Positions 15,666-55,931 of a stretch of DNA of 64,000 bases are shown piece by piece. Location of the stretch: contig JAJEKV010000002.1 in NCBI GenBank assembly GCA_021234155.1, positions 34,762,128 to 34,826,127 of the forward strand. The letters run 5' to 3'. The notes under the pieces are model-generated. The model ran no database searches. It saw nothing but the letters and a program-made list of their open reading frames with translations, and had not been told where the DNA came from. Within the stretch, counting starts at the first letter, position 1. Each line of letters starts with the position of its first letter. Source of the DNA: Isoetes taiwanensis (lineage: Eukaryota > Streptophyta > Lycopodiopsida > Isoetales > Isoetaceae). The translations under genes were made by a program, and so were the position numbers.

Positions 15666-15686
15666 CATTAGAGGTTTGGTGGAGTC
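15666..15686 (+). repeat. Left terminal inverted repeat of T
   Basis: CATTAGAGGTTTGGTGGAGT, complementary to 55911-55931 at 16 of 21 positions with the first eight perfect. It begins precisely where LTR B homology ends. Confidence 0.65.
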
Positions 15687-16096
15687 TATTAACGCCCTTG
15701 TAAGCCCTTCCCAAATTTGGATTTTAGTTGGTACCCGAACCTGCAGGTATGGGCAAAAAGCCCCCACGAACCTTAACCGAACCTCATCCCTGGAGCGACC
15801 GAACCTGGTAAACGTCATTATTACTTGCTGTTTTACTCATTACGCCTAAATCCCTCCTCCCCCCACCTTTCCACCGAACTGAAGCTACAAGGAGTAGCTT
15901 CGAGCGGGACACCTCAAGAATGCCTCAATTGGGCGCTAAAGCTTTGGAGGGCATTTCGAATTTAGTTTTGATGTCAATCCTCGCCCAAATCCAAAGGAAT
16001 TCTCTAGTTTTCCTTCGTATTTTGGCGAAGAATTGCATCAATTTGGTCGCCGGACTGTGGAGCTCGAAAAGCGATCACGCGACTCTGAATTCGATC
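15687..16096. other. Left subterminal region of T
   Basis: Contains CCGAACCT at 15735, 15777 and 15799, also found twice in the right end. It is GC-richer than the sequence that follows and probably holds the promoter of gene X. No gene seen. Confidence 0.5.
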
Positions 16097-16161
16097 TATG
16101 GCAGAGGTAACTGTTCTATCAATTTCGGGCAATGACAATGATTTTTTGAATACAATTCCGG

Positions 16162-16680
16162 GTGGAGGTGCCCAAAAACTGCTTGCCCTACAAAAATCAA
16201 TATAATCGGAAGGAACAGGTCGATGAGAATGCTCTTCGAGCTTCTGGTGCAATGAATATTGATCTTTGGGCACGTGGGGAACTGTATCCCATCGATCCGA
16301 TCACCAGAAGACATCCTGAATTTCATTCTCCATCGGGGCTTATTCATTTTGCCTGTAAGGGTAATCAAGGTCTGCTTGGCTATTGCAATAATATTTCAAG
16401 TAATTCTGATGTGCGTTTGAGAACAATGTACAATCAATTGTGTGGAGTGCATTGCAATATGGTAGCACACTGTAATTACCTCCAACAGTGTAACTATTTC
16501 TTAACCAACAGGTCTAAGAATACAGAAGAACTGCAAGCTTCCAATCAAAGGTTGCTTATGGAGGTGGAGTCACTTAAACAAGGATTGAAGAGATGCTCTG
16601 AGGACAATGACAAACTGGAGAGGAAGTTAAAAAGACTGAAAATGACACCACTGGGCATGAGGGAGAGGAAAAAAACCTGA
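16162..16680 (+). CDS. 5' ORF of gene X: coiled-coil protein
   Basis: Up to 172 codons. An upstream ATG at 16097 opens a frame that runs into this one only through a frameshift or intron. Visible features: a cysteine/histidine-rich middle (about residues 70-110) and a C-terminal heptad-like coiled coil with leucines and many Lys/Glu (about 120-165), ending in basic residues. It precedes the transposase-like ORF by about 110 bp in the same direction, so it is either the N-terminus of X separated by an intron or a partner protein. No family was recognised. Confidence 0.5.
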   Translation: MEVPKNCLPYKNQYNRKEQVDENALRASGAMNIDLWARGELYPIDPITRRHPEFHSPSGLIHFACKGNQGLLGYCNNISSNSDVRLRTMYNQLCGVHCNMVAHCNYLQQCNYFLTNRSKNTEELQASNQRLLMEVESLKQGLKRCSEDNDKLERKLKRLKMTPLGMRERKKT

Positions 16681-16792
16681 GGCCCTAAGTATACTTGCCC
16701 CTAGTGGTGGGGGCTCTAGAAGAAGAATCCACGCTATTAAAAATCTGATGGATCCTACTATGGCTGAAAAGAAGAAGTGAAAACCTTGTAAT

Positions 16793-17846
16793 ATGGCTAG
16801 TTTGTTGAAAACGCTTGTAACTAAATATGATGTTATAGATATGTTGAAGCTTCCTGGAGCTAACCATTTAAGAAAAGCTGTTGTTGAACAGGTGCTTACT
16901 GAATTGGGAAAGAGTCAAAGTGCTGATAGCATGCAAGAATTATGTGACAATGTGGGTATCAGTCGACAAGCTTACATTGCTCTCTTTAGATGTTTGCAGG
17001 ATGGTATCAAGCAACAGGGTATTACGAAGACCATACTGCCAAGATTCAGTTATGTCAGAGCAAGTAGAACAAAGAGGAATGCAGAAGTACACGAACATTT
17101 GGGAGAGATGTACCAGATCACCACATCCGTGCACTTGGGATCACTAATCACTGGGAAAAGTAAGAAGAAGGGTGGCTCCGGAAATGATCTATTTGTTCTT
17201 AATGAGAAGAATAATTGTTGGATGGATCTCTCTAAAATGCTTCTTCTGTTAGTTCGCTTCTATGATATGAAAGTGGAAGAATGTGGAGGGAAACTCCAAA
17301 TTGCTATAAAGTTGGATGAGATGGAACTGATCAAAGGTGAAAAGTATGAGAGGGTTTCTTTGACATTAATGAACAGGGCGTTGTCAAATTCTGATAATGA
17401 GGAAGGGAAGTTCTCTGTTCAATCAGAGGACCATATTTGGTGGATAGGGATATTTCAAGTACCGGAAGAAAATCATGGTGTTCTTCAGTGGGTCTTTAGG
17501 TTGAATGGCATTTGGCTGCTGATCTAAAGACCATCAAGTGCATGTATAACATGAAACATGGTTCCGGTAAGACTACCCACGCATGTCCTTACTGTTTGTA
17601 TGCTAGGGTAGATGATAAGGGGAAGGGAATGAGTACTCTCATTTGTGACCAGGATGCTGAACCAACGCGTGAGAAGGAGGACAAAACTTTGATCCCCGTA
17701 CTTGCAATTCTTGTGAAGAGAGTACATATTTGCACTCTCCATGCCTTTCTAAGAATAATGGATAAGATGGTGTACATGAGCATTCTTTTTGCTTGGAATA
17801 AGTCTCCACAATCAGCCAGAGAAAAGTGTATGAAAGATGTTGAGAA
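16793..17846 (+). pseudogene. Gene X copy 1: DDE-transposase-like protein, 5' part
   Basis: ORF 16793-17527 (244 codons), then the frame shifts and continues as 17512-17846. An N-terminal helical region contains GISRQAY. It is followed by LNEKNNCW, then KLDEMELIKG, which I take as the first acidic catalytic block. After the shift comes AADLKTIKCMYN with CPYC, which resembles the second-Asp block plus zinc ribbon of eukaryotic DDE transposases. Compared with copy 2, this copy lacks 79 bp near 17498, causing the frameshift, and it stops abruptly at 17846 before the third catalytic block. It is nearly identical to copy 2 over 17135-17846. The transposase assignment is an inference from motif order. 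Confidence 0.6.
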
Positions 17847-20160
17847 TTGTGGTTTTCCGGCAGTGCTAGTTACGCGGATTTTTGTTTTCTGACCTTTTCC
17901 GGCGTTCGAGCGTTTCGTAAGAGGGAATGCTATAACGGTGGTTGCTTTCTTTGGCGGTGGGTAACGCAAACAAATCGGTCTGAGCAAACGGCTCTGGTGC
18001 AAACGTTTCTATGGCGACGATGGAGATGCTCGATTTCTGGGCTACAAGTAAACTTTTTGCTGGAGATTCTTACCACTGTTCATGCAGCAAGCAAGCAAGC
18101 GGCGGCTTATTGGTTTAAAATGAGGCGCTCATCAGTATTTTAGAAAGCTGATTTCCAAGGTAGATTTTGCATTTCGGTTTTGGTTCTTGGAGGAGGAAAG
18201 GCATTTTGTTTTTGGTTCTTGCAGGAGCAAAGGCATTTCGTTTTTGCTCAAAGCTAATCCGTGAAAGCTCTTCTGAGAAAAAGAAGCATTGGAGCATGCA
18301 TGCAATCCTTATCATGCATCCGTGAAAGCCCTTTTCTTGCATTTCGTCTTTGGATCTTGCAAATGCATTTCGTTTTTTGTTCTTGAATTTGTTTCTGGTC
18401 CTGGAACTCAGTTATGTATCTGTAATCATACAGGACTACGTTTATGATTTTTTTTTCTCCAGTGGAGCTTTGGAGCAGCCATGACTGAAGCTAGAAGAGC
18501 CCTTTTCTACTGTTTCATTTTTCAGTTTCTAATTCATTGCAATAAGATCTTTCCAGGTACTACCTTGCATAACTTTGCAGAATTTCGTTTTAAAAATGCA
18601 ATTAAAGTACATTTATCTGGATGAATGCCCTGCATGATATTTTACTTTCATCTCATTTTAGTTTTCATGTCTATTAATATTAGCAGACTGAGGCTAAGGT
18701 AAGCCAAGGCCGCTTTCTGGCCTTATTGCTGATTCTTTTTACAAGAAGATTGGAGTATGACACTGGTTACTCTTGGTTGCAAAGCTTGGTATCCTTAGTG
18801 CTAATGTTTTAGTGGCTTTGCTGGGGCCTTCTCATGTGATGTAGATTAGAGAAAAAAATGTGGGGAAAATTGCATGCTATCAATGTTAGGCAAGAGTTGC
18901 AATGGATTCTAAGACATGGATTGGTGAAAATTAAATCTTTCTTTTGTATTGATTTACAGTTAAGGCCATGCTTGCAAGGACATCAATAAAGTTTATAAAT
19001 ATTTTTGCCTATGCTACGTCATGCCAGACATGAAAAATTGTTGTTGCTGCTACAAACTCGTACAGGTTAGTTGTTCTGCCTTTTAAAATATTGTTTGTAT
19101 CTCTTTCAAATTTTACATGGACAGGACATGCATGCCATCATGTGATTGTACAAGGCATCTGATGCAATCAGTTAAACGTGTTCACATATCTGTGTCTTTT
19201 TATCACAAAGATAAGCAACCCAGATACGGCCCATGCCTATTTCTATATTGAACAAAGCAGAATGAGAGTCCCGTTCTTGGGAAGCCAAAACGATCAGATT
19301 CGGTCCAGTGTCATGATGTGGATCACATCACATGCTGCACCATGTATGTCATGAAGTTTAAAAAATTATACTGAATCATTCAAAAATTGACGTTTTGTGT
19401 CTGGGTAGATGCACATCAGCAAATCCAGTAGGAGTAAACTACGGCCAGTTACCATATGGTTTTTCGTTACCTGAGCAAGCTGTAATCAGGGAAAGCTTTA
19501 AGATGCAAATTTTGGATGCAAATGGACAAATTTCTGCATTCAAACTCGGTAAGCCAGAATGTAGCAGAGTATTTGTTGAAGCTGATTATTATCCGAGTAG
19601 TTTTTGTGCCTTGAAAGAACATGTTGTGCATGAAACTTAGTAGTGTTCAAGAAAATTGCATAGGCCTGATACTGATTGGATACTGATTTCACAAAAAATT
19701 GATGTTATTTTGTGAAAATAGTTATTCTATGGCAAGGCAGTAATATTTAAAATACGTTTGTGGCATGAAGCCCATTGTCCTATCTTAACCTAGAAGAATT
19801 TTTTTTTGGAAAATATATTTGACAAGGAGGCTTCTATTTGACAATATAAACTATAAAACATGGCTTTTGCGAATATTAATGTGGTAGTACGAATGCAATT
19901 CACATCTAATTGTTAAATGCCACATCTCCAAAGAATTTGTCAACCTTGAGGAGATATTACCTCAAATGGGGATTTCTATTACATTGGTCGTATCTAAGTT
20001 CACCCCTTGCCTGTGTCTCTACTATTGTTTCAGTTGTTATGCACATTTGTTTCGCATGCCAATTGATTTAAATGTGAGCTCATCAGGCTAAGAAGAGAAA
20101 ATAAATGACTACATTTCCCTTATGCACATGTTTTCCCTTAATAATCTCTCAAAACAACGT
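17847..20160. other. Unassigned region after X copy 1
   Basis: Sequence unrelated to gene X starts at 17847. It contains a degenerate five-copy repeat (18169-18386). The ORF at 19395-19640 opens just after a splice-acceptor-like GGGTAG, but its product is not recognisable. No supportable gene. Confidence 0.4.
18169..18386 (+). repeat. Five-copy GCATTTCGTTTTTGG repeat
   Basis: Degenerate units of the form GCATTTCGTTTTTGGTTCTTG at 18169, 18201, 18232, 18339 and 18365, separated by 10 to 85 bases. The spacing is irregular and no coding frame is maintained. Confidence 0.7.
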
Positions 20161-22505
20161 CGTTGACTACGAATGTGAATTTGGTCTAATTTGACGTGAC
20201 ACACTACGAGAAATGCCTTAAGTAGTGACAACACATAATATAGAAAAGAGGGGGCATGTTCAGTTGCTAAAATGTGAATTTGATTTAATTTGATGTCACA
20301 AACAGTGAGAAATGCCAATGAAATCGTCCATAACAATCTACAAATTCATGCACTACGCATTTTATTTATGGGTGAAGATATTGTATGCGAAGCAATGCTG
20401 GGTACTGGTTTGCTAACTATGCATTGATCAATGGCGTTTTAGTGGCGTTTTATCATCTTGAGATACTTAATGTTTTGTTTGCTCATATGAGAACCCCCCC
20501 CCCGGTGGTCCTCCTTTTTGGAGGTTAACGCGTAGGGGTATAGATCTCAGTGTTCACCTAGGCTTCATCCATAATGATTTTGAGAATGGTCATAATATTT
20601 ATCTTCCTCAAATTTGTAGGAAAAATGCTATACAAATTGGAGAATAGCTTTGTTTGATTATGCCCTCCCTCCCTCCCTCCTTAAGTGACTTAGATGCCTA
20701 ATCCTCACGTGTCTTGCAATCCTTAAGTGATATCTCTTGCTATTTGCAATAGGCATTGAGCTCAAGTTATGAACGGCTATAAACAACATATTTGGTATTT
20801 CTTTATACTACATGATCCTTACTATCATATACTTATGTGCGGCAACGCCAGACACAGGTTTACTAGAACAGATCAACAACGATGACATTAGCCTATCCTC
20901 ATTGATTTGGCCACCCCAACATTTTTTGTGCGAGACATTAACAAATCAATTAAAACTTTTCTGATCCTATTATGACAATTTTTTGGGCATGACATTAACA
21001 GTTCTATCACAATTCTCTATCACAAATTTTTTGATCCTACTAAGGCAACATATCATTTACAATAATACCACACACGACATCATAACAAGTTATCAATACC
21101 AACGTTTCTACTTGCAGGACACTATAACAAGTTATCCAAGAGACAACATAAAATAATTGGGTATTACAAAGCATATTTGTAATAGTTTTCTTATATGATT
21201 AGCCCTTCAACATACAATCTTCGATCTTATTGGCTTTCAATACTTATCCTAAAGAATTGTGATACTTTTTGTAGCCTATTGCATGAGTTCTGCAACTGCC
21301 ACACCTATAGCAATAGTATTTAGATAATGCACATAAGTATTAGCGAGTCCAAGTTGCAAATAACACGCGTTAGCAATTAACACCTAGGCAGAATAACCTG
21401 GCAGAATAACACTCTCCCAAAACCTTCCCGAACAAGCTAGAGAAATGCTCTTCATTGAATTGCAAACTATGCAACCACTTCTACTTTTCCATAGATAAGA
21501 AGAAGCTATAACAAATTCAATTATCGTATTGGAGCAATATTATCAAGTAAATGGATAGATAATGAAAATACAAAACAAACACAATTGCATTTGGGGATCT
21601 ACAAATGGTTTCGTCCTGAGGTGGTTTCGTCCAGTATCAACATGTGGTGTTGTCGAAAGTTGCACGTATGGAACTTAAAGGCCGAGCAAAAATACATGGT
21701 AGGACATTAGCCCAGCAACGCCGGGCACACGTTTATAGTAGACATACTTGAATTAGCCAAGCGCCCTACACTCTTGAAGTGTTGAATAATCGTACGTTGT
21801 ACTTCTACGAAGAGCAATTTAAATGAATTCAAAAAAGGTATTTGCAAAATATTTAAATATCAACTGACGAAAATGTATACCTCCTTAATTCTAAACAGCT
21901 CTATTGCACTACAAAATAACAATATAGAAGTTGGATCCATTATTTTTAGTGGCGTGCATTTTGGTGCCGACGCGTGGCATCAGCCAATAACACAGAATGG
22001 AAGTTAGCTTCATGCATTTCGACTGACCGGCTGCGCAGGTTAGGGCTTTCTTAGGTTTTGTTTTAGGTTTATAGTCGCCGCCAGTTCTCACCATCGGCAG
22101 TTCTTCCCAGACTAGAGTGCTTGCCATCGCCAGTTCTTCACAGATCGACAGTTCTTTACGGTGCTTGCCATCGTTACCATAATGGAGCATTTTGAAGCTC
22201 GCAATAGGCATGTTCTTCCTCTGTTTTTGATCCAACGCCCAATTCTTCAGAAGAAATGCTTGCCATGGCCTTGTTCTTTGGCCCAATGTCTGCTCTTTGA
22301 CCTAGTTTGCATGTAGTTTATTTCTGCACAGGTAGCAGATCTCTTCAAGGGTCAAAAAACCGCAGGTTTATCGCAGGATCTGTTCAACGAAAAATCTCTG
22401 TAAAACCTTGTCGGATCTTGTAAGAATGCTGTAAGTCTGCTGGCAAATGCCCTGTAAATTTGTTGGATCTGCAGAAAGAAAAAAAGCATCCCCAACTTCT
22501 ATATT
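20161..22505. other. Unassigned region with small direct repeats
   Basis: A 45-bp direct repeat, AATGTGAATTTG...GAAATGCC, at about 20171-20215 and 20271-20316. There is a C homopolymer near 20492 and a CCCT run near 20666. CACTAC motifs at 20205 and 21908 could be transposon termini but are unpaired. Short ORFs only. Confidence 0.4.
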
Positions 22506-22611
22506 GTAGGGGAATGGAGGTTGAGGCCTCCATTCCGATTTCCAGGTGACCCGCTCGCGGGACCCCACCTGAAAACCCGGAATGGAGGCCCCAACCTCCA
22601 TTCCCCTATAC
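22506..22611. repeat. Nested foldback (106-bp inverted repeat)
   Basis: Arms 22506-22548 and 22566-22611 pair almost fully around a GC-rich loop CCGCTCGCGGG. Each arm is itself an inverted repeat (GGAATGGAGG...CCTCCATTCC), so a cruciform within a cruciform is possible. It could be a foldback MITE or a small-RNA precursor. Confidence 0.85.
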
Positions 22612-23522
22612 AAAAAGGAAGATATGGGCAATACCTTGCTAAATTCGAGAGGGATTTGGAATTAAAGAATGCCACTACTTGCATTCTCGAAGCCTCATAA
22701 GCATGCCTCCAAACAAAATTGTAGAATCTAACATAATATGTAAGCCCATGATTAAACTTAAGCAAGTATTAACCAGTTGCTCCATTATGCCATGCAAAGG
22801 CAATGAGTAGATGAGAGTTGTCTATTCTGATACTTTAGCATTTCCATGTTCAAATGCATTAAGATTAGGTGGTCCCTGCTCCAAAGCCTTCAAAACCTAT
22901 ATGGTATCATCATGTTCCAAGGCAAAATCACTAAGGTATACCTTGGTGCGAGGGCCTTATGGGCCTCTCTTATACAATCATGCATTGAGCAGTAGATACC
23001 ACTATTTTCATGCCCTGGCATTTAGGGTTGATTTATCATGACACACATAATAATTTTATACACAGAGCTTGTTAACTTTGTTAATATTGGTTTGTTGCAT
23101 AGGCTCAAAGCCTGCCCAATAACTGAGAAGGAATTGATCCCAACTGTGGCAAATGTAGTGCAATAGGGAAGAAAAATCAAAGTGATAAGCAAAGGGGCTC
23201 ACAGCTCTTCCTTATTGGTGTGTCCAGGAGGAAACGAAGGCCTTCTCATCAGCCTAGATCCGCAGCTCTAGATCTAGCTCTTCTTCCACCATAGCTCTAG
23301 ATCAGCCTTCTTCCACCATAGCTCCAGATCTAGCAGCAAAAACTGCCACAGTTGACGCAAGTGTTCTCCTGCAAAATTGTGACAGAGATTGCCAAGTATG
23401 ATCCCACAATTCCACATACCATGTCCTAGAGTGGCCTATAGATTGCCTAATTGGTGAGATGAAGTGGCACTTGAAAGTTTGCCCTAATAGAGACAGGTTT
23501 TTGGCCTCTTCAACATTCTGCC
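22612..23522. other. Unassigned sequence upstream of LINE fragment
   Basis: Holds an imperfect internal duplication with CTAGATC and CTTCTTCCACCATAGCTC blocks at about 23264-23335. No gene was recognised. Where the LINE fragment begins within 23460-23530 is uncertain. Confidence 0.4.
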
Positions 23523-24353
23523 ATGAAGCGCCATCTCCACTATATCTACAAGGTGCACCACATGGATGATGTTAGGTATCCTGTTCTTGCACTTGCCATG
23601 GCTGAATCTCCTCAGCGTTTGAAACGATGTTGGAAAGAGCATTGCACTACATGGTTTGCTCGTTGGGTTGTGCAACCAGAGCACTGCCTGATGCTTGCCA
23701 GTTCTGATCCTGAGCTTTTGCAACAATATCTTAATGGTCGTTTTTCTCAAAAGATATGGGACGCAGTTACTTTGGCCCAAGTGAAAACTGGTCATTATCA
23801 TGCACACATAAATCCCACTTTGGCACCAGGGCCCCAAGCTTATTTGCTTGCTTCATTGTCCAGGAACAAGCTTGTAGCTATTGCATCAATTCGCACGGGG
23901 TCCCACAGGCTACGGATTGAGACAAGTAGATGGGAGCGGCCGCAATTGCCGCGAGAAGCGAGACTATGTGCCTGTTGCCAGTTACAGGTTATTGAAGATG
24001 AAAGCCATACTCTTCTGAGTTGCCCTGCTTTTGAGATAGTCCGGAATCATTTTTCGACCTTAGCATTCCATTCCACGCTTCCACAACTTCTCAGCGCACC
24101 ATCTGTGCATGACTTGGCATTATACATACTTGAGGTTCTAGATAAACGTCTGCAATTACTGAGCCCTCAGTAGTCATTATCTAAGCTTGTCTAGTATCAT
24201 CATTACTGCAAAGGTTTTTCCCTTGAAAACCTTTCGAGGCAGGGGTTTTTTAATCCTAGTAGTAATGATTGTACTAGCCCATTGTATGGGTCCCATGACC
24301 TATTGGTCTCCGTGGACGTTAAAAAACTATTCTATTCTATTCTATTCTATTGT
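23523..24353 (+). mobile_element. 5'-truncated LINE copy with (TATTC)n tail
   Basis: An ORF of 216 codons is the C-terminal end of a LINE ORF2, homologous to 28013-28816 (for example HINPTL, RIETSRWERP/RIETGRW). It ends in a zinc-finger-like CACCQ...EDESHTLLSCPAF. After the stop at 24173 a 3' untranslated stretch carries GGTCTCCGTGGACGTTAAAA and then about five TATTC units. Only the last quarter of the element is present, typical of abortive target-primed reverse transcription. Confidence 0.85.
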
Positions 24354-26390
24354 TCAAGTAATATCATTTTGTGTACTTTGTCTATGAGAGTTTGGAGAAG
24401 GTAGTGCCATTACAAATGATATTACAATTGTCATAAACATTAACACTTGAATTATCAATACGAAAATTACAACAAGTATTGATAGTAAGAGTGATGTAAG
24501 TCATGATATTATCCATGACGCCATTATCGACACATATAGCATCATATGCTAGCACTGATATAATATTGTCAATATGTGATACTATAGATGAAGCTATGGG
24601 TGATACTGTAATTGGCATGAGCTATAACACTTATATTGTCATTAACACCATTGGAGTAATAAATGATGGTAAAGTTGATGCAATATGTGATATTATTCAT
24701 GACGCTATTAGTAACACATATATTGTCATTAGTTAATACTGTTATAATTGTTGACCAAATTTATGACGATAATGATGATGCTATAGATGATAGAATCTTG
24801 TCATTAGTAGTGTCACTGACCTTGAATATCATTATTTGTATCACTTAATACTTTTTAGAATTTTAGGTGACATTAACACTAGAGTTGTTACTGGAACTAT
24901 TCTGGGTTCATCCACCATAATTGGTCCAGCATACCCTCTGCCACTTAAACCCAGGTATCTAACAAGAGAAATTTCCATTTCACAAGATACCACCACTTTT
25001 GGAATCTTCACTCGATTCTTTATGGCCGTGGAGAATTTCATGACCAATAGATTTACTGATATGTTGTGGTGATTGCCCAAACCTCATTGAATTCAGCAGT
25101 TTTTACGCCAGGCCAGAACTGCATTCTTCAAACTTTCTAGCATAAAGGGGTCCAAACGTTTCTAAAATTGAAAATAATTTACGTTTTATGATAAAACATG
25201 TTGATTTACATGTTTTCATGTTTCGTTGCTATTAGATGGCATTATATGAAGTCGTCAAACCATTTTTAGCTCAAAAAGTCGCTTTGAGGTTGTGAATTGT
25301 TTCTCCTTTACTATAACAAGTTTTGACGTAAGACTTGCGGCCATAAGTTGTCAACTCTAAGAGCTATAGTCCAATAATTTTTTGAAATGTCTATAAGTCA
25401 TGTTGATCTCAATTTTCACTAAAGAAGATTCGATACAGAATCCAGGACAAAAATAGAACTAACGTGGTTTAACTAAACTTATATATAAGCTTTCTAAAGG
25501 CAATAAATGATGCACTCCATTCATTCCACTTATACATTCATAATAAAGAATTTTATGAACTTAAATATGGTGAATAACCATGTATTCTTTACATTTAGAA
25601 GTGGTTGCCACTACACAAAATTAGAGTTTAGCTAAGGTAATAATACAAAAACTCATCTTTTATGGTAGGCAATATTTTTTTTATGAATGTCACCCTTCCT
25701 TGGCAACATAGATCTTGAATTTCATGTTAAAGTAACATATTATGTACAAGATTTGATTTAAAATAGACATGGACCATTTCTGGTTTGTACTTAGGCTTGC
25801 CATATTTTAAAGCAAGATAGCATTCTTTTCAACTCATGATTGACGAAACATGATAGAAACTTAAAATATAGTTTGTATCGTCTTAGTGCAAAACACACGA
25901 TGAAATCTTCTTATTTTTTACTATCATAAACTTAGTACACGTGTTTGCTGCTTAAGAGTTCCTACTTTAGGTATAATAATAGTAACTTTAGCTTGTCTTT
26001 CATGATAGACTATAATTTTTATGGGTTCAAGCTTCATTGGCAACATAGATCTCCAATTTGATGTTAAAAATAACATACTACTATATGTAAAATTTGAATA
26101 TAAATGGGCATGGACCATTATGGTCCACAATTAACGAATTAGGTATAGAATTAAATCTCTCTAATTATGATTACCAATTTTATTTATTGTTCATTTGTCA
26201 CTTATACAATGATATGGCAATTTTCTACCTTCTCTAACATAATTTTTGGAAGGGTGAGTGGAGATTCATATAGGTTCAGTTTGCTTGTGCTTCAACTTTA
26301 CCATTAAATAATGCAATTCTAGCAACCAACTAATTAAGATGAGGATGTTCTGGCTTCTTGAATGATCATAAGCCATGTGGACCAGCAATG
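24354..26390. other. AT-rich region, no gene seen
   Basis: 24,400-24,850 consists of diverged AT-rich repeats, for example GATATTATCCATGACGCCATT near 24507 against GATATTATTCATGACGCTATT near 24690, which keep some frames open by chance. The remainder is unremarkable. Confidence 0.4.
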
Positions 26391-41812: not shown

Positions 41813-41899
41813 TTTTCAGCAGTACCTCCTCACTGGTGCTCTTCCACTAGAAGACGAGACGCTTTCTCCTGCCAAGCGACAATCCCGTCGCCATCAATT

Positions 41900-47035: not shown

Positions 47036-47048
47036 TTGGTGGGGGGAG

Positions 47049-47626
47049 TGTTAGTCCACATGCCTCACAGTACGGGACTATTCATGCATCTGACAGACCA
47101 GGTCAAGCTCAAGGATCCTCGAGTCAACCACGGGTCAGCCATCAAAAGCTCGGCCAGAAGACCAAGCGCCAGACCACCGGTCAAAGCCTATCAAGAGGCG
47201 CCCGCTCGACAAGTGGCGGCCCGTCACGCCAGCGTCGGCGTCCAGTGATTCTAGGCATTTCAAGAGGCACCGCCCACATTCCTGCGAATCAGGCCTCCTT
47301 CCAGGAGTCGGCAACCGAGATCGATCGAGTGTCTATATTGGGCCCAAGGACATTGTACTATATATATGAGTAGAGCTAGCATATGATGGCTAGATGAGTT
47401 TTGAGTCTTGTCTCATTTTCAGTTCTTCTCTCTATTGCGAGAGCTCATGTATGTTCATCATTGATATCAAGGAAGCTTATCATTTTCCTCTCATTTGTTC
47501 TGTTTTCTTCTTCTTCTTCTCTTCTTGCAAATCCCGCGTGACATAGTCCCCCGGACTCTCCTGTTAGATCCACAGGTCCTCACAGAGGGCTGTCTTCCAG
47601 GAGTTCCCGAACCCAGACCCCAAACA
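47049..47626 (+). repeat. 3' LTR of E
   Basis: TGTTAGTCCACATG...CCCCAAACA, preceded by a polypurine tract at 47036-47048. It has a TATA box at 47360-47366. Gene H reading resumes immediately afterwards. Confidence 0.9.
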
Positions 47627-48703
47627 CTGTGCCTGATGATACGTCGATGTGGTAGTTGCACCAGACACGTAGTTGCCTGTTCCTTCGATGGGAGCTGACA
47701 ACTTGCTTGAGGCACTCCATTCCTTCGTCGTGTGGCCCAGGTTGATGGCTTCTTTGACGCCAACTCCTAACACATTCTCTGTACTGGCTATGAGATAGAC
47801 TACATCACCGGACTTCCTCGTAGAGTGTCGGAAGTTGGATTGGTGGAGATAAACCAGGGGCCAGACTTGCTTGGAGCCGACAATGAGAATGCTAAGCCCC
47901 ATGAGGATGACCATCAGGATGTGCATATCCAGAATGTTCCCGCTGTCGCTCGGAATGAGGATGTACTGTCGAGCGCTCCTATCATTTGTTCGTAATGTAT
48001 TTCGACCCCTGAATGTTATGTACCAGGGCAGGTCCCTGTGATAGCTCAAATCGAAGAAAATATCGTTCTACAAGAGGCAGCTGCAGTACCTGTGATGGTT
48101 GTACCTGAAACCGTAGTACCAGATGCAGTAGTGGTTCCTGTTGTTGAGCAGCCTTTAGAGGTCACGGAATCCAGTAGACGTAAGAGGAAGACTAAGCCTA
48201 AGCAGCTGCAGAAGAAACAGGTTCTCTGTAAAGGCCCTCCTAAGCTGAATAAGAAGGGCCAGCCATTTAAGCCAAAGTATAGATGGATTCGGGAAATCCG
48301 GCACTTCCAGAACCACGTGGAGTGGGTGCTTCCGAAACTCACAATGGCTAGAATATGTAAGGAGGTGGTTCAGGAGAGATACACTAAGATGAAGAGGGAT
48401 GGTGCAAGGTACCGAAAAGCTGGTTACCGTTTTTCAATGCCAGAAGAGGTGACTCGATTCACTGCAGATGCCCTTGATGCTCACTTGACGAGGCGCGTGA
48501 GAATCACATGGTCGGTTCTTCAAGACCGTGTGAAATGTCTTTGTGCATTCCAAGAGAGTGACAATAATGAGGCAGGATATTGCCTTGACAAATTACTTCC
48601 GAGGCATGTAAAGTGTTTTATATTAATGAAACGATCTTTGTTGTATATTTTGTTTGCTTGCTAAGTATTTTGATTGTATCTATTCTCTATGTATACTTAC
48701 AAT

Positions 48704-48834
48704 GCACCATTGCCACGGTGCGAAATGGGTGTAAATTACTTTGTGAGGGGTATTTTTTTACCGTGGCCCACGGTCTGAAATACAATTCTTTGTGTGAGGC
48801 GGGGCAATTTCACTGTGGCCCGCGGGTGCGAAAA
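48704..48834. repeat. Palindrome cluster 1 (3' of H and p49)
   Basis: Three copies of a GC-rich palindrome family at 48704-48721, 48760-48776 and 48809-48834, forms of ACCGTGGCCCACGGT followed by (G)CGAAA. They lie in the 370-bp interval between the convergent ends of H and p49. Confidence 0.75.
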
Positions 48835-49034
48835 ATTGAATCATTCCATAGAAGGTGAATCACAAGATCAAAGGGAACATATTAACATGTTAGAGAATAT
48901 ATTAATATATTAGAGAACATTTAGAGAACGGCAAGTAATGGCAGTATGTCCAAGTAACCTTCCCCTAGGTTTCTAACCCCTTCCCCTTTCCCTGCGAGGG
49001 GTAACCCACGCACCGGGTTAGGGAAACCAGGAGC

Positions 49035-49561
49035 TCACGCCAGATCCCAAACTGATTCTTCCCACCATGTGGGATACCTAGTCATTAGAAAAAGTAATTC
49101 CACATGATGATACTCACGGAAGAAGAGCGGACCCAACTCCACAAAATCGTTGTACTCGTTGTAGTACGCACTAATAAGGCCATACATCTGTCCCTTACAA
49201 ATTTCATGAATGAACTCTGATATGTATTGATCCAGAGAGTGTGCTAAATAACCAAAGACGAAGAAGAGGCCTCAATCAGGCCAGCATCTCGTCCAGATAA
49301 GGAGGGGGTTCAAGAATTCCCCTCATTGCAAGCCTCCTATAACATTCAGATGGATTGATTTCCATCAGTGGCTCATGACCACAAATCAAATCGCTCCAGA
49401 ATGAAGTTGATCAACTCCATTGCAAGCTCCTTGGTGGGACTGTGGTGCAACCTCCACTCCAAGAAATGGTCAAATAGCTCATCAGTTTTAGGCCGCACAG
49501 AATGTCTGGGGCATGCTTGCAGGCCTTCTGGAGTGGCCCAGGGAGGATTCGGTCCAATCAT
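49035..49561 (-). CDS. p49: unknown protein, paralogue of p50
   Basis: Starts MIGPNPPWATPEGLQAC, then DELFDHFLEWRLHHSPTKEL and ELINFILERFDLW. One frame change leads into PLMEINPSECYRRLAMRGIL, and after a further change SLDQYIS and MYGLISAYYNEYNDFVELGP, ending at 49035. All three blocks align in order with p50, so the gene is real, even though it is now frameshifted or has small introns. No membrane segments and no known domain. It shares a purine-rich tandem repeat upstream with p50. Function unknown. Confidence 0.6.
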
Positions 49562-49800
49562 TTACAAAGAGCACGAAGATCAAGTAGCAAAGAACAAGGA
49601 GCACGAAGATCAAGTAGCAAGGAGCATCAAGATCAAGTAGCAAGAAGCAAGGATCAAGGACGATCAAGGAGCAAGAAGATCAAAAAACAAGGAAGATCAT
49701 GGAGCAAGAAAGCAAGGAACAAGATCAAGTAGCAAGATCAAGAGCAAGGTACAAGGAAGACCAAAGACCAAGAAGTGAAAGCAAGGTGAAAACATGGAAC
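49560..49800. repeat. Purine-rich tandem repeat upstream of p49
   Basis: Degenerate repeats of about 11 to 30 bp built on GATCAAGTAGCAAGGAGCA. They lie directly 5' of the p49 start on the minus strand, so they would be a CT-rich leader or promoter tract of that gene. Confidence 0.8.
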
Positions 49801-49971
49801 AAAGGTGAGAAGTGAAAGCAAGCTGAAAGAATTTATAGCTACGAATCTAATAATGCTGAAGTATAATACTAATACTATTGAAGTATAATACCAAGAATGA
49901 TGAAGAATAATACCAATAATGCTGAAGTATTATACCATTCGGTGGTGGTAACAAAACGGGATCTCAGATTT

Positions 49972-50055
49972 ACACCGTAGCCACCTGGTCATAAATAGGC
50001 CCTTCAATAATTTGTAATCGGAAAGCAATTTCAATCACCGTGGCTACGGTGCCGA
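49972..50055. repeat. Palindrome cluster 2 (3' of p50)
   Basis: CACCGTAGCCACCTGGT at 49972 and CACCGTGGCTACGGTGCCGA at 50036-50055, members of the same palindrome family, downstream of the p50 stop. Confidence 0.65.
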
Positions 50056-50258
50056 ATATGACCACAAATAGAACAATCACATGAAAAAATACAAGGAAAA
50101 TGGTAGAAGATATCATTCAATTACACTAAAAGTGTAAGATTGCCAAGATAATACATGATAAGATAAGGATGTTAATTACACGAAAATCACTTGCTTATAT
50201 ACTTAATTTCTATGAAAATCTTTATACCAGTTTATACACATATTCCAATGGAGTATCT

Positions 50259-50824
50259 TTACCCGTGATATGTAATGATATGTCTTTGTGTGCTATGTAG
50301 CCATAGGTCACGTGTATCCCAAGGAATTGTATCCCACTCGGGGAATTTAGACAAGAACTTCAGGGATGTTGAAGTCAAGGAACGGAATAGGAGCTTACCA
50401 AGATCCACAAAAGATTTGTAATGGAAGTCGAAAAGTTCAATGAGGATATAAATCCTATTCTTCTCACTAGTAGGAATGACCGAGGCACATCTTGATCCGG
50501 AGAGTAGGCCATGAAACCATGGAAAAGCATGTCCTTCAACTGTTCTAGCCTATCTTCTAAATCTGAGGGGGGTTCAAGAAGTCCCAAAGCACTTAGAGTG
50601 AACCTTGCTTGACTCGAATTGATCTCCTCCAGTGGAGGGAGATGACGAGTATAGCGATCGATAATGAAGTTGATCAGCTGCCTTGCAAGCTCTGTGGTTG
50701 GATCGTGACGCCATCGATGCTCCCAAAAGTTGCTAAAAAATTCATCAAAAGTGCACGTATTTCTGCCGCATGCTTGCAGGTATTCCGGATCAGCCCAACG
50801 AGGATGTTCTTGCAAAGTTACCAT
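50259..50824 (-). CDS. p50: unknown protein, paralogue of p49
   Basis: ATG at 50824 begins MVTLQEHPRWADPEYLQACG, chosen because homology with p49 begins at WADPE. The first frame runs through FWEHRWRHDPTTELARQLIN, PPLEEINSSQARFTLSALGL and a Leu/Glu-rich helix to about 50485. A one-base shift then leads to RIYILIELFDFHYKSFVDLG and a C-terminus rich in Trp and Thr ending at 50259. Soluble, helical-looking, no known fold. The neighbour p51A is transcribed divergently. Confidence 0.6.
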
Positions 50825-50839
50825 TTGCAAGAAATTAGT

Positions 50840-50996
50840 GGAGCAGACAAGAAACAACTAGTGGAGCAGACAGGGAGGCAAGGAGCAGACAAAAGGCGGA
50901 CAAGAGGGGGAAAGAGGCAAAGAAGCAGACAAGAAGCAGACAAGAGGCAAGGAGCAAACAAGAAGCAGACAAGAGGGGGAAATTGGCAAAGACAAT
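50840..50996. repeat. Purine-rich tandem repeat upstream of p50
   Basis: Units around GCAGACAAGAGGCAAGGA repeated about nine times immediately 5' of p50, analogous in position to the repeat before p49 but with a different unit. Confidence 0.8.
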
Positions 50997-51131
50997 GAAG
51001 GCATAGATGCCTATTTAAAGAGAAATCAGGTATATATGCTATATACGTACATTATATTGGGTGAATTATTGGTGTTCATTGCCATTATACGAGTACCATA
51101 CAAGTATGTATATAATCCAATAATTTCTATG

Positions 51132-51187
51132 TATATACCATCAATAATTTTGGTGGGTACATACCATCAATAATTTTGGTGGGTATA
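51132..51187. promoter_or_regulatory. Duplicated 26-bp block in p50/p51A divergent interval
   Basis: Two adjacent copies of TACCATCAATAATTTTGGTG plus GGTA lie about 50 bp before the p51A ATG, with TATAAAT (51184-51190) right after. A possible core promoter. Confidence 0.45.
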
Positions 51188-51235
51188 AATATACATCAAA
51201 TTGCCGAGTGCAGCAACATTGGCCTCCATCTAGCC

Positions 51236-51484
51236 ATGTGGTCTCATTCTGGTCCTGAACGTGATTCCATTACCTGCAAGATGAATCACAAAAACTTCAA
51301 GCAGTGTCGCGAGCGAGAAATACCCATGGAAGACTGGATGACCACTGCCGCTCTCAATCCTCACTATTATCCTGATCCCTTTGATGTTATCATCCATCTA
51401 ATATGGAATAGAGAGCATCAAATGTACATGATAGAAAAGATCACTGGGGTGCCTGGTGACAATGACTCAGAAGAGTCCCCCTAA
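51236..51484 (+). CDS. p51A: small unknown protein, paralogue of p51B
   Basis: 82 codons from the ATG at 51236, chosen because upstream residues are not conserved in p51B. It shares with p51B the pattern DSITC.M...C...IP...W, VIIHL, and I..IT..P..DD near the end. Two conserved Cys, acidic C-terminus, no signal peptide. Compact size and tandem duplication recall small structural or regulatory genes in viruses and mobile elements. Function unknown. Confidence 0.6.
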   Translation: MWSHSGPERDSITCKMNHKNFKQCREREIPMEDWMTTAALNPHYYPDPFDVIIHLIWNREHQMYMIEKITGVPGDNDSEESP

Positions 51485-51646
51485 ATCAATACTTGTCATC
51501 TGGAACTTATTTGAAGAGTTCATGATCGTGTATTTTGTACATTATGCTCGTATATATAACCAATAATGCTGCTACAGTGCATGTCAATAATTTTGTTCGA
51601 TATAAGTACAGCTCCATTCATTCAATGGAGAAGGCATCCATTTGCT

Positions 51647-51916
51647 ATGTCTCGACCTGGTTATTCTTATTACAGGGGGTCTACCTTGCCTATAGACTCC
51701 ATTACTTGCACTATGAAATATAATGATCTTTATAGATGTTCTCAGAGGGGTATCCCCCTTGATCCCTGGTTGGAAGGAGTAGCAGAGGGTCGAAATCATT
51801 CTTCCAACGGGGTTTATCGTGTTGTTATCCACCTTCATCGGGTTCCAGAGCGTCACGTCTATGAGATTAATCGCATCACTCAACTACCTGCTCATGATGA
51901 TCCCGATTGCGAATGA
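51647..51916 (+). CDS. p51B: small unknown protein, paralogue of p51A
   Basis: 89 codons from the ATG at 51647 (MSRPGYSYYRG). The pattern DSITCTMKYNDLYRCSQRGI then VVIHLHRVPERHVYEINRIT aligns with p51A over its full core at roughly 40 per cent by eye. Both Cys and the acidic C-terminus are kept, which argues for selection since the duplication. A longer upstream reading from 51566 exists but is not conserved. Confidence 0.6.
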   Translation: MSRPGYSYYRGSTLPIDSITCTMKYNDLYRCSQRGIPLDPWLEGVAEGRNHSSNGVYRVVIHLHRVPERHVYEINRITQLPAHDDPDCE

Positions 51917-52133
51917 TCTTCTGCATTTATGTATGCTATGCCTCTTATATGAGTTCTAAATTCTGTTACTAGAATATTTCAGACATTCGCTAGTTATAAA
52001 TATGTAACCATAAGAGATAGATACATATGATCCATCTATTTACCGCACATTTTCAATTTGGAAAGCTCTTGGCCATTTTTCTTACATGTAGATTCTAAAT
52101 TCAGATAAGCATTCTCTTCAATTGTGTGTGTAG

Positions 52134-52324
52134 TCACGGTGCGAAAATTGCACACTCCAAAAACGTTGGATCAAGCTATTTTTGCACCGTGGCGGCGGTC
52201 TTGAAATAGACCTTCCCACGTATGTGGAATAGTCATTTTCGCACCGTGGCCCGCGGTCGCGAATATTGGTTAGTTGTAACCCACCGACAACACGGTCTTA
52301 CATGCCGTAGCCCGCTGTCAAGTA
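52134..52324. repeat. Palindrome cluster 3 (3' of p51B and W)
   Basis: Four members: TCACGGTGCGAAAA at 52134, GCACCGTGGCGGCGGTC at 52184, CGCACCGTGGCCCGCGGTCG at 52240 and a diverged GCCGTAGCCCGC at 52304. They sit in the interval between the convergent 3' ends of p51B and W. Confidence 0.75.
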
Positions 52325-52667
52325 AAATAGAAGCGTAAAAACAAATTAAAATGAAATCAAGTTTATGTTCGATATAACAAGAATAGAGATTTCAAACAAG
52401 TCTTTGCATTAATTGACAATGGTTACAACTTCATTTTCTTAGAAACATGTAAGTCATCTGGACACTTCGACTTCTTCCAATTAGGACTCTGCGGACCAAA
52501 GATCCAACAGTACATAAAGGCGAGGAATCACGGGGCTCCCTCTCTTCCCAAGTCACGGAATTGTAGCCTTATCCACGCCGGACAAAGCCAATGCAGCTCT
52601 CTGGCAGCCATAGAATACATACTAAAGCCACCAAAAATATGCGTGGCGATATCTCTCCTAACGACCA

Positions 52668-53101
52668 CTACTCGATCGAATTGGCGGATAATGGGATGTG
52701 ATTACCAATCAACGAGAGGGCCTTGAGTTTCAAGACCTCTTCTAGTCCATATGGGCTGTACTTAGAATGGAACACAACGATCTCTCCCTTATAAAGGTAG
52801 CCCATATAGTGGGCGATACTTGCATCTCTCGCCAAGGGTAACTTTCTGTCATGTCGGGCGAAAAATCGGCCACAAAAATCTCTGGCGCAATAAACAATCG
52901 TTCTTAGGCACTTAACAAAATAAGCAAACTTATGGTAGCTTACCTCCACTTCATCGGATGCAATAACCCCTTTGGTAGAAATGTTGATGGATCGACCTTG
53001 AAGAGCTTGATTAAGCTCTTTGATACTTGTTTTGCACCATCTTTTTTAGCTTCCGATGTACTTTCGCCTCGAACTTTACTTGATACTTCCTTCAAGCCCA
53101 T
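52668..53101 (-). CDS. Gene W: unknown two-exon protein
   Basis: Exon 1 runs from about 53101 (MGLKEVSSKVRG, or in a longer frame NAFDRVRRWREMG) to 52944. A 62-bp intron follows, 52943 to 52882, with donor AG/GTAAGC and acceptor GCGCCAG. Exon 2 runs from 52881 to the stop at 52668. Splicing keeps the frame and gives ...HPMKWR then DFCGRFFARHDRKLPLARDA and later YLYKGEIVVFHSKYSPYGLE. Exon 1 overlaps the end of Y by frame, so W could be the C-terminal part of Y after a one-base error. Function unknown. Confidence 0.55.
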
Positions 53102-53132
53102 TTCTCGCCATCTCCTAACTCTATCAAAAGCA

Positions 53133-53948
53133 TTATCGAGCTATTGAAGTTCCATCATAGGTTAAGAGATCGCGGTGCAGGTCCCTAGGCACTTCCGCTC
53201 GGTCAATGAAGTCGCCTAGACCAACAACGAAAGCATAGATTTGTTCAAGGACCTCATCTTCCCTCAAACCAGTAATGGAAGATATATCGTGGAGAAGAAG
53301 ATAGTCCTTCCCTCCTATGTTAACTGGCAAGGCTTCCGTGATACCCCATCTATCAAGATTCTCTTCATGCTCATTTACGTCTTCATCCTCGTCCTCATCG
53401 AGCTTTTCCACCAGTTCCTGCTCTTTCTCTGCATCAAATACCTCCTCTACAGGTGACTGAGATTCTGCAATAGCCTTCACCTGTGGTTCTTCCCTATCTG
53501 TTGGTGGAACCGTATATATCATGTAAGTAGCAAACATGATGTCAACTGGATATAAATTATCCTTCCCATCCTTCTCACATAAGTCGGCTGGCAGTCTCTT
53601 GAATGACCTTCGAACCTTATCTTGGTCACCTTTGGGAAAAAGCTTCAGAAATGACTTTAGACTCAATACAATCTTCCCAGTCAAGGGAGAAGGACGCACT
53701 TCAGTTTCTGTCACGGCCATGAAACTCTGAATGTACTGACCATACACGTCAATGTGTTTGTTAGCCTCAGAGATTATATCTACCGTTAGGCAGAAGTTAT
53801 TGTAGACTACAGTGGCGTCTACCGGGTTTTCAGGCTGTTGAGCGAACTCATCTGGGTGTGACAGCCGATACTCTGCTTCCTTCCTGACGATCTGGTCATA
53901 CCATGCCTGGAACTGTTCCCAAGCTTTCTCTGACCTGCCGTTTGACAT
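53133..53948 (-). CDS. Gene Y: acidic unknown protein
   Basis: 271 codons, uninterrupted, one of the clearest intact ORFs in the window. The N-terminus (MSNGRSEKAWEQFQAWYDQI) is helical. Residues about 85-140 are basic, and residues about 165-205 form a strongly acidic Glu/Asp-rich segment (DEDEDEDVNEHEE). The C-terminal block contains YLLLHDISSITGLREDEVLE. An acidic tract beside a histone-fold protein elsewhere in T might suggest chromatin binding, but that is speculation. Ends 32 bp before the W start. Confidence 0.6.
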   Translation of the reverse strand: MSNGRSEKAWEQFQAWYDQIVRKEAEYRLSHPDEFAQQPENPVDATVVYNNFCLTVDIISEANKHIDVYGQYIQSFMAVTETEVRPSPLTGKIVLSLKSFLKLFPKGDQDKVRRSFKRLPADLCEKDGKDNLYPVDIMFATYMIYTVPPTDREEPQVKAIAESQSPVEEVFDAEKEQELVEKLDEDEDEDVNEHEENLDRWGITEALPVNIGGKDYLLLHDISSITGLREDEVLEQIYAFVVGLGDFIDRAEVPRDLHRDLLTYDGTSIAR

Positions 53949-54062
53949 TGCGGAATTGTAGCGCCTCCTTTAGTGCAATAAAAACCTGATCGCCTAAATG
54001 TAAGTGCTTGCGAGCTCAAGGCGCGAAACTAAAATGTCTTAAGTGTCCTGATGAGAAATATG

Positions 54063-54267
54063 TCGCACCGTGGCCACGGTGCGAAACAAATATAAACGCC
54101 AAAGACAACAATAAGGTATTCGCACCGTGGCCACGGTGCGATATTTTGCCGAAAAGAAGGCCAAATTTATGTTAACTGCAAAACATACTACACCGTGGCC
54201 ACGGTGCGAAACTACACAACACGACTACACGAACTCCACATGTTTCGCACGGTGGCCACGGTGCTAA
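54063..54267. repeat. Palindrome cluster 4 (between Z and Y)
   Basis: Four copies at 54063-54086, 54121-54140, 54191-54210 and 54243-54267. The first two contain the perfect 20-bp palindrome CGCACCGTGGCCACGGTGCG. Spacing is 57, 70 and 54 bp. It lies about 80 bp downstream of the Z stop and 115 bp upstream of the Y start. Confidence 0.9.
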
Positions 54268-54342
54268 CTTTGCAAAAGGATATAAGTTATTGGCAAACAA
54301 CACTGGGATTTGAACCCAGTAACACCATTGTTATTTATTTGT

Positions 54343-55539
54343 TTAACTGTTTTCACTTAAAGAAAGTACAACAGGAGGCATACAGAGCTTTGTTGTATAC
54401 AACTCTTCCCTACGTTTTCCTACCTTGACACCATCCACCAAAAAATGGAAGACGTTTAAGTCACATTCTGATTCCAAAATAATTCTTACATCAAATAAAG
54501 ACCATGCTTCTTCGACTTTTAAGGTTTTAAACAATTGACCACTTTTGAAGATAGCAATGTCAATGACCGCAGAATGGGTACCATCAGCATCGTCTTGTTC
54601 CACTGGAACCCACGTCCATCTGCTCCCTTCTTTTACTTCCCTCCATCTTCTGTATTTGAAGGTAATGTAAATTGTTTGCTTTCGAATACAATACCTGATT
54701 CGAACGCTTTCTTTCTTTATCCTGCACTGTACCTTCTCAACTCCTTCATGCAGAGGGGATGACCATTCATCACATAAATGACAATCACTTACAGTAAACA
54801 TTTTTGAAGTCTTCTTGACATTCTCGACATTCTTAAACAACGTAATAAACATATCGATGGGTACATTTACTTTCACGTGTCCACAGACTCCACCTTTCTC
54901 CTTCAAAGCACTGAAAATTTCTTGTGACAATTTCAGCTTGGCAAGAAACAGAGAACTGGAATCCATTGGGCAGGAACTAAGCTGTGATAATGGGAGCAAT
55001 GGTAAGTCCACAATTTTGCCTTTCCGAGGATAATACTCATATTTTAAGAACCAAATCCCCCTTTCCCGCAGCTGCACTTCTGTTTGACCTTCAAAAAGCA
55101 AGGATCCAATATCATAATAGAAAGCACGGAAGATGCTTGTGATAGAACTTCGATGGTTCCGTGTCCAAAGACATCGAAATACAGAGCCCTGAGATACCAG
55201 AAACCCAATTAGTTGATTTCTTCAAAATATAATGAATGACGGATTAGCACAGATATAATGAAACTCACAATTAGCACGAAGCTCAGGGAAATTACGTCGA
55301 GATCTTATCTTTTCTTTTCTCATGTCTGTCGGTGTGTATAGGTGTCTGACCTTGATATATACTTCCCCTCTCACCTCGAACCCGACAACAATAGCCTTCC
55401 AATGGCTTGAAATAACATTTCTCCTGCCTTTGATCACCCGGTGAGGACCTCTGAGTGGCGGTCGGATTGTAATGAAGCTCCCAAGAAATATATTGAAGCA
55501 GCCGAAATCGTTCTCAGCTGTGACAGAGGTAATCGCCAT
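54343..55539 (-). CDS. Gene Z: unknown protein with an intron or in-frame stop
   Basis: The first frame, 55539-55222 (MAITSVTAENDFGCFNIFLG), and the second, 55101-54343 (252 codons), are the same reading frame separated by one TGA near 55222. A donor AATT/GTGAGT and an acceptor TATCTCAG lie around that TGA. No tested splice choice restores the frame cleanly, so a nonsense change is also possible. Visible: several beta-rich stretches, Cys pairs (SDCHLCDEW) and a basic YRRWREVKEGSRWTW. Sliding-clamp-like topology crossed my mind but cannot be supported. Function unknown. Confidence 0.5.
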
Positions 55540-55910
55540 CTGAAATGAACCGGCAAATTAATTAGATCAAACAGTCTGAATCAGATGAGCTCGCAGAACT
55601 AGAAGGATTGAAAGCATTAGCAAACCTGGATGGAGAGGCGCGAAAAGACGGGGGAAGGGGGCCGTTGAGGAGGGGGGGGGGTACTTATAGACACCCCAAC
55701 ATTTGGGCGGTAATTCAGGGCGGGAATAATTTGTAATTATTGCTTCCCGCCCACCGAACCTCCAGGGCAGGTAGGTCAGGATAATGCCGAACCTGTACCT
55801 TGACGACACCTGGCATGGGAAGGCAGGCATGGATGAAGAAAAGCCTGTACCCCCCGCATTCTCATTGGCCGCGCGATTTCCATGCTGGCATCGAGGTTGG
55901 GACAATAAGT
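55540..55910. other. Right subterminal region of T
   Basis: Promoter side of Z, a G homopolymer (about 55671-55680), and CCGAACCT at 55754 and 55787, as in the left end. No gene; the minus ORF 55567-55989 is low-complexity and crosses the end of T. Confidence 0.5.
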
Positions 55911-55931
55911 GATCCCAAAAAAACTCTAATG
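55911..55931 (-). repeat. Right terminal inverted repeat of T
   Basis: Ends ACTCTAATG. Immediately after, CGATGGGTGATGCC resumes LTR B exactly where the left fragment stopped. Confidence 0.65.

Follow-up and report, generated by a model that had tools for sequence, protein, structure and literature searches.

A multi-gene terminal-inverted-repeat DNA transposon with a predicted RAG1-like transposase core and a histone H3 fusion gene in Isoetes taiwanensis

We analyze a window of 64,000 nucleotides from the Isoetes taiwanensis genome (assembly GCA_021234155.1, contig JAJEKV010000002.1), in which positions 15666 to 55931 are occupied by an element with inverted termini. The element is a multi-gene DNA transposon with terminal inverted repeats (TIR) and an undisturbed unit of about 12 kb. 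The whole is best explained, with high confidence on our part, as a TIR transposon of this size that owes its mobility to a DDE transposase of RAG1/Transib/CACTA type and has some seven other genes on board, one of them a histone H3 fusion. A sequence-only reading of the window had proposed a DNA transposon that ends in CATTAGAG and carries several genes, among them a transposase, a gene for a histone-fold protein and others that fit no known family, and this description is retained here. Its view of a giant element, and of 40.3 kb as one compact gene set, gives way to a unit of about 12 kb, as judged from the distances between paired ends, together with some 28 kb of later insertions.

Ends, copies and later insertions

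The features that delimit the element, its two principal genes and the DNA inserted into them are listed below by window position, with open reading frames abbreviated as ORFs and long terminal repeats as LTRs.

15666..15673, + strand: left terminal inverted repeat CATTAGAG, opening a 26-bp terminus
16150..17846, + strand: transposase 5′ part (copy A), with N-terminal region, coiled coil and first and second catalytic Asp
17847..27556, strand not assigned: insertion or rearrangement of 9.7 kb
27557..27804, + strand: opening segment of transposase copy B, a partial duplicate that begins at the equivalent of 17135; 94% identical to 17135-17398
27805..34560, − strand: nested retroelement resembling a long interspersed nuclear element (LINE), with reverse-strand ORFs, cleanly splitting transposase copy B; 3-bp repeat AAT
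34561..35840, + strand: transposase copy B 3′ part, with second Asp, CxxC, H-x4-H and final Glu region; frame changes
36225..36557, + strand: H3 fusion 5′ part, interrupted by the LTR retrotransposon; its start codon, placed by eye, corresponds to L018:3335, where a frame of 525 codons begins
36558..47627, + strand: nested LTR retrotransposon, LTRs 36558-37127 and 47048-47626 (88% identical), reverse transcriptase-RNase H 41429-41809
47641..48608, + strand: H3 fusion 3′ part; the H3 domain spans about 48190-48608, with a change of reading frame close to 48500 in the window copy
55924..55931, − strand: right terminal inverted repeat (CTCTAATG on the + strand), part of a 23-bp terminus

The element interrupts an LTR-type repeat that had been read as broken at 15665|15666 and resuming at 55932, and two uninterrupted copies of this repeat in the window span the site: one at 62809-64000 on the reverse strand, which shares 81% and 77% identity with the respective flanks, and another, diverged, at 7415-8048. 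The 8-mer CATTAGAG is weak evidence by itself, with three window matches against 2.3 expected; since it is no rarer there than chance, proof had to come from other genomic copies, which were sought in the whole source genome (1,658,258,908 bases in 1110 contigs). Exact matches number 110 (64+46) for the 26-bp left terminus and 96 (50+46) for the 23-bp right terminus, against none for either reversed-pattern control; as only exact termini were counted, both figures are lower bounds for the family. These copies uphold the inverted CATTAGAG that the sequence-only reading had placed at both break points.

A 1-kb query spanning the left end returned 40 scored genome matches, the window included, and 35 of the 39 others start within 3 bases of window position 15666, at 90-96% identity to the window. 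Flanking DNA is unlike between copies wherever flanks were inspected. For 58 of the first 100 left ends (from the total of 110) a correctly oriented right end lies within 70 kb, two of them sharing one right end, whereas a right end on the wrong side or strand was found within that distance for five. Element length is 11.5-12.3 kb in 18 of the 58 paired copies, among which the window copy, at 40,266 bp, is the third longest. Defined ends, about 100 copies, a gene set kept between those ends and varied insertion sites, including other transposons, are thereby shown, and the search for second copies with the same ends that the earlier reading had called for is answered. At G000:C1040:1411311-1429263, two copies of 7197 and 7199 bp lie about 10.7 kb apart, probably representing a single internally deleted copy that was tandemly duplicated.

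The anatomy of the unit was established by comparing the window with seven genomic copies, for each of which 20-30 kb were fetched. All seven hold most of 15666-17497, of 34561-36558 and of the right arm from 47641, in that order; they carry gaps and insertions of their own, and six reach the equivalent of 55931 within the fetched DNA. The 9.7-kb segment at 17847..27556 is not found inside any of them; it contains a LINE-like fragment (about 23.5-24.35 kb) and is bounded by the partial transposase duplication. The 3′ end of the nested LINE-like insertion is 77% like the fragment near 24.35 kb, and the two of its ORFs that were scanned gave no Pfam match at cut-off. The LTR retrotransposon, which carries an RNase H domain (PF17917, E 2.5e-12) and is flanked by the near-identical 5-bp repeat CCGTG/CTGTG, is absent from the equivalent place in all seven copies. 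The ORFs at 23.5, 28-31 and 37-47 kb lie within later insertions and are therefore not element genes, so that a compact gene island of 40 kb is ruled out.

Some further observations concern these insertions. A transposase stretch of about 0.7 kb (17135-17846; 27557-35090) is duplicated some 10 kb apart, the two copies sharing about 94-99% identity and being separated by 9.7 kb of foreign DNA; template-switching repair and recombination between copies are options for its origin. A retrotransposon of the same family as the nested LTR element, 82.8% identical over 11 kb, lies elsewhere in copy C1028 (L021-L023), adjoining the equivalent of window position 55485. The ORF at 19362-19637 recalls, by eye, the start of a glycosyl hydrolase 17 (GVNYGQLP), and has no Pfam match.

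Genes and repeats of the element

Transposase sequence is present in all seven compared copies. Copy A in the window lacks about 80 bp after 17497, a stretch present in copy B and in other genomic copies, and the sequence from 34561 is 99% identical to 17396-17846 and runs on into the 3′ part seen in the compared copies. Structure prediction supports a transposase core folded like that of RAG1, with matching catalytic and zinc-ligand residues: the predicted fold matches RAG1/Transib, and D, D, CxxC, H-x4-H and E follow in RAG1 order, with a GS[LI]G-W-[ST][EQ]G-E block around the last Glu. Between the second D and the E, the C(2)C and H(3-4)H motifs are complete in homologues P0005/P0006. Within the element family, the second D, CxxC, H-x4-H and E stand in one frame of copy C1050, and the first D is found in C1049 and in the window. 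Aligned by hhalign to RAG1 alone, the transposase gave a best E of 0.0014. Searches of viral_contigs and genome_contigs gained no transposase relatives.

The histone-fold protein noticed in the initial reading is confirmed by Pfam matches in the window and in copies, and the gene encodes what its sequence indicates to be a highly divergent H3 with the H3 signature. PF00125 matches the window domain at E 4.2e-4 (alpha3, in another frame, at 3.4e-3), copy C1049 at E 2.5e-9 and copy C985, in a single frame, at E 1.6e-16 (61 bits, cut-off 26.4). The RVTIM motif and alpha3 stretch of C985 match H3 chains in the PDB, with a best whole-sequence E of 1.3e-14. The C985 frame runs for 525 codons from its first Met, having lost the stop that follows RGM in other copies; 447 residues separate this Met from the end of the H3 match, and about 21 extra residues lie between alpha1 and alpha2. 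The roughly 300 residues N-terminal to the domain have no Pfam match at cut-off. Among at least 7995 scored candidates, no relative of the fusion was found at 0.001 and no similar fusion occurred. Dismissal of the H3 gene as such as a pseudogene was rejected, the window frame change being absent from copies C985 and C1028.

The remaining genes and repeats are the following.

15736, 15767, 15778 and 15800 (15736..15806), + strand: left subterminal CGAACCT repeats
49283..49580 (approximate bounds), − strand: p49, paralogue of p50 (68% DNA identity over 157 bp)
50378..50857, − strand: p50, an ORF paralogous to p49
51236..51481, + strand: p51A, 82 amino acids, paralogue of p51B
51647..51913, + strand: p51B, 89 amino acids, paralogue of p51A
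52943..53948, − strand: Z, open over 53136-53948 and continuing to 52943 via a frame change
54346..55539, − strand: W, the gene nearest the right end, as ORFs
48705, 50036, 52185, 54066, 54123, 54191 and 54248 (48705..54263), intergenic: GC-rich palindromes, consensus CACCGTGGCCACGGTG
55755 and 55788 (55755..55794), + strand: right subterminal CGAACCT repeats

From left to right the element thus comprises an end, CGAACCT repeats (element positions 71-141), transposase (+), H3 fusion (+), p49 (−), p50 (−), p51A and p51B (+), Z (−), W (−), one or two CGAACCT repeats and the other end. The use of both strands and the tandem paralogues reported earlier are both evident in this arrangement, and protein-level paralogy over 300 shuffles each reaches z 17.6 for p51A/p51B and z 32.5 for p49/p50 (p49 taken from the C1050 copy). 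Three or four of the four left CGAACCT sites (element positions 71, 102, 113 and 135) and one or two near the right end occur in each of the five copies examined, which hold five to eight repeats per element, a few of them internal, against 1.1 to 1.7 expected. The CACCGTGGCCACGGTG palindrome, allowing up to 3 mismatches, matches seven times in the window, always between right-arm genes, against 0.10 expected; in five copies each element holds three to 15 such palindromes, often spaced by about 57 bp.

The frame of Z is longer in copy C1049, and its predicted structure has a mean pLDDT (predicted local distance difference test) of 49. Z has no homologue at 0.01 among 805 candidates; kinship to the kinetochore protein Nkp2 was discarded, at E 0.067 and 0.11, far below cut-off. 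W plausibly contains a short intron near 55190-55270, to judge from its reading frames. Its pieces have no Pfam match at cut-off, and a BAH domain suggested by eye was dropped, no BAH appearing in Pfam at E<=5 for the pieces or for a two-piece string. Against the PDB, W and Z gave weak matches only, at E 0.037 or worse, and the first piece of W gave nothing at E<=10.

Substitutions were counted by comparing six or seven other copies with that of the window, leaving out indel patches. Pooled over ten gene segments, 216 non-synonymous and 121 synonymous differences were obtained (ratio 1.8; about 2.7 under neutrality), and three intergenic controls gave 31 to 11 pooled. The signal stems from the transposase, Z and p51A, the last with 9 non-synonymous and 10 synonymous differences. 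Indel patches over window positions 54980-55560 and 48240-48640 have an unlike outcome in each copy and do not resemble ordinary decay.

Target sites and relation to known transposons

Target-site duplication was assessed on 29 copies with both flanks, deriving expectations from shuffled pairing and leaving p values uncorrected. No flank duplication of 5, 6, 7, 9 or 10 bp occurs in these copies (for 5 bp, 0.03 expected). Exact matches of 1, 2, 3, 4 and 8 bp were seen in 11, 2, 1, 2 and 1 copies, against 7.5, 2.0, 0.4, 0.1 and 0.03 expected (p 0.095, 0.60, 0.36, 0.004 and 0.033). The 8-bp case and one 4-bp case are the same insertion, in a GATA microsatellite; the other 4-bp case, a TTAC repeat at C1050, was rejected as a duplication, two empty gypsy relatives having the same length and the joined frame being open. 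Mean flank identity exceeds the control at just two lengths, k=4 and k=10 (p 0.043 and 0.025), and the host bases at the junctions are mixed. Relative to empty sites, the net change is 0 and −2 bp for the window (two relatives), 0 for C1050 (two) and −3 for C1028 (one), single bases being uncertain because the relatives are only about 67-81% identical. A target-site duplication of constant length is excluded, and the element family is unusual both in this respect and in its histone gene.

The element shares with the RAG1 core, ProtoRAG and Transib a predicted core fold, the ordered D, D, CxxC, H-x4-H and E, and the block at the last Glu. Transib/RAG-like transposons are further defined by CAC ends and a 5-bp duplication, which is typical of Transibs (Kapitonov and Koonin 2015, PMC4411706) and also found in AanRAGL, a RAG-like element reported along with 39 potential Transib-like plant proteins (Tao 2022, PMC9435367). 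The element, in contrast, has CAT ends, no 5-bp duplication in 29 copies and other partner genes, and its sequence is too distant for plain profile search; the element ORFs scanned contain no RAG2-like Pfam match.

Whether the element belongs to a named lineage (EnSpm/CACTA, Chapaev, Transib or the little-described Lanisha) of the CMCT clade, which unites EnSpm, Mirage, Chapaev, Transib and their relatives, bears only on its novelty, and we regard such membership as a real possibility, if not the favored one. The zinc motifs C(2)C and H(3-4)H in a DDE transposase, the 5′-CA..TG-3′ termini (CATTAGAG..CTCTAATG) and the RAG1/Transib-like fold all agree with it, as do the subterminal repeats and captured genes, both commonplace among CACTA elements of plants. 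The transposase ORFs of the window, an ORF from one copy and ten homologues all lack a Pfam match at cut-off, and even at E<=1 their matches do not include Transposase_21, which we take to be the Pfam family of curated plant CACTA transposases. The termini CATTAGAG are neither CACTA nor CAC; where EnSpm/CACTA elements have CACTA-type ends and a 3-bp duplication, this element has CATTA and a 3-bp match in one of 29 copies (0.4 expected). Accessory genes, too, are shared with EnSpm/CACTA and CMCT elements, which differ from this one in their 2-5 bp duplications (CMCT in the naming of Kojima 2025) and in lacking a histone fusion; Lanisha, described in a Repbase report, is cited for its similarity to EnSpm (PMC12730594).

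Other origins account for less of the evidence. Mobility of a Helitron- or Crypton-like, non-DDE kind, with the transposase gene as a passenger, would fit the lack of regular duplication, which those classes share, and is nonetheless improbable given inverted termini at both ends, mixed junction bases that depart from the Helitron A|T rule, transposase sequence in every compared copy and no helicase or recombinase match at cut-off among the element ORFs scanned. Gene density, use of both strands, tandem paralogues, a histone gene and GC-rich palindromes at gene ends could all suggest an endogenised large DNA virus or polinton-like element, as the sequence-only reading did in part. Such an origin is very improbable: Pfam matches of the element ORFs, scanned piecewise, include no capsid, packaging ATPase, polymerase or primase, the transposase has no viral_contigs relative and no match in the viral fold library at E<=0.001, and neither Z nor the window H3 ORF has confirmed viral_contigs relatives. 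That reading had also pointed to KDZ (Kyakuja-Dileera-Zisupton) transposons, which likewise carry cargo genes; this is scarcely credible, since no KDZ model appears among the Pfam matches, the fold matches RAG1/Transib, and the 8-bp duplication of Zisupton has a counterpart in one of 29 copies, inside the GATA microsatellite (PMC12730594).

Partial parallels exist elsewhere. Spy elements of the Harbinger group are likewise reported to lack target-site duplication (0 bp; Han 2014, via PMC12730594), and belong to another transposase group. A fungal hAT transposon carries H3 as well (PMC6710886), there captured from the host, whereas the H3 of this element is highly divergent and fused to about 300 residues. 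Fungal TET/JBP transposons of the CMCT clade and of others (ESTA, Plavaka, KDZ and more) resemble it in having a chromatin-related gene aboard, encoding an enzyme that acts on DNA rather than a structural histone (PMC12730594). Among the papers listed by searches of a part of the literature, we found no published description of the element or of a transposon-encoded H3 fusion.

Returning to the reading of a TIR transposon with a RAG1-related transposase, several observations weigh against it or against parts of it. The link to RAG1 is structural, and sequence support for it is weak: transposase query A1 retrieved no RAG1 at E<=10 when run against the sequences in the PDB, hhalign on unmodified A1 produced no RAG1 match, and a first re-run reached E 0.064, where the score of 20.5 compares with 20.3 for the top-scoring one among 40 shuffles. 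The fold matches do not include EnSpm, Chapaev or Mirage, which is uninformative, for we know of no solved structure of their transposases, and fold ranking therefore cannot choose among CMCT lineages. No regular duplication accompanies insertion, unlike the 2-5 bp of the CMCT clade, and exact 4-bp matches, both explained above, exceed expectation (2 of 29 against 0.11, p 0.004). No transposase frame is open end to end in the copies inspected. From copy to copy, frame changes are concentrated in the same short stretches, with outcomes that differ, so that some may be assembly errors at particular motifs, possibly methylated sites. The substitution counts argue modestly for selection on the element genes: one intergenic control, with 8 differences (5 to 3), also gives 1.7, and p49 (ratio 5.3) and p50 (2.4) show no selection signal. 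The role of the histone, finally, is a proposal.

Possible mechanism and the host locus

We propose that the transposase, bound to the subterminal CGAACCT repeats and to the 8-bp termini, cuts the element out and links it to the target by blunt or near-blunt cuts, or through host end-joining. Joining of either kind, as we infer it, would leave nothing duplicated and might lose a few bases. The H3 fusion might enter nucleosomes on or near the element, or be tethered to element DNA by its N-terminal region, and could thereby work against silencing or label the chromatin of the element for the transposase, while the palindrome arrays between genes may end or insulate transcription units.

RAG1, which assembles antibody genes, derives from a transposon, and vertebrate RAG2 reads a histone H3 mark. 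A bolder interpretation, which we consider unlikely, would make the element a new eukaryotic transposon superfamily, RAG1-related, virus-like and gene-dense, that integrates without duplication and uses an H3 variant with a targeting region to build private chromatin on itself, whether this serves to evade silencing or to put together the transposition complex, much as RAG2 ties RAG1 to modified H3. A distant, multi-copy RAG1 relative with another mode of joining and a histone of its own would widen the view of how this enzyme family evolved and became coupled to chromatin, and the element offers a tangible case in which to ask what use a transposon makes of a histone that it encodes itself. 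In genome annotation it would give a name to a family now unclassified, none of the ten scanned homologues having a Pfam match at cut-off.

The target repeat itself appears, from ORFs judged by eye, to lie within the pol region of a reverse-strand Ty3-type retrotransposon (13026-15665 and 55932-59228), with RNase H and integrase-like frames on the left and reverse-transcriptase, protease and gag-like frames on the right; the only ORF scanned in this region (56474-56722) has no Pfam match. As the insertion apparently lies inside a Ty3-type pol, elements would be nested several deep at this locus. A zf-RVT match also lies in the window outside the element. Flanking the element, a unit of about 1.7 kb occurs twice in the same orientation, at 10476-12216 and 59673-61776, 82-93% identical and 49 kb apart.

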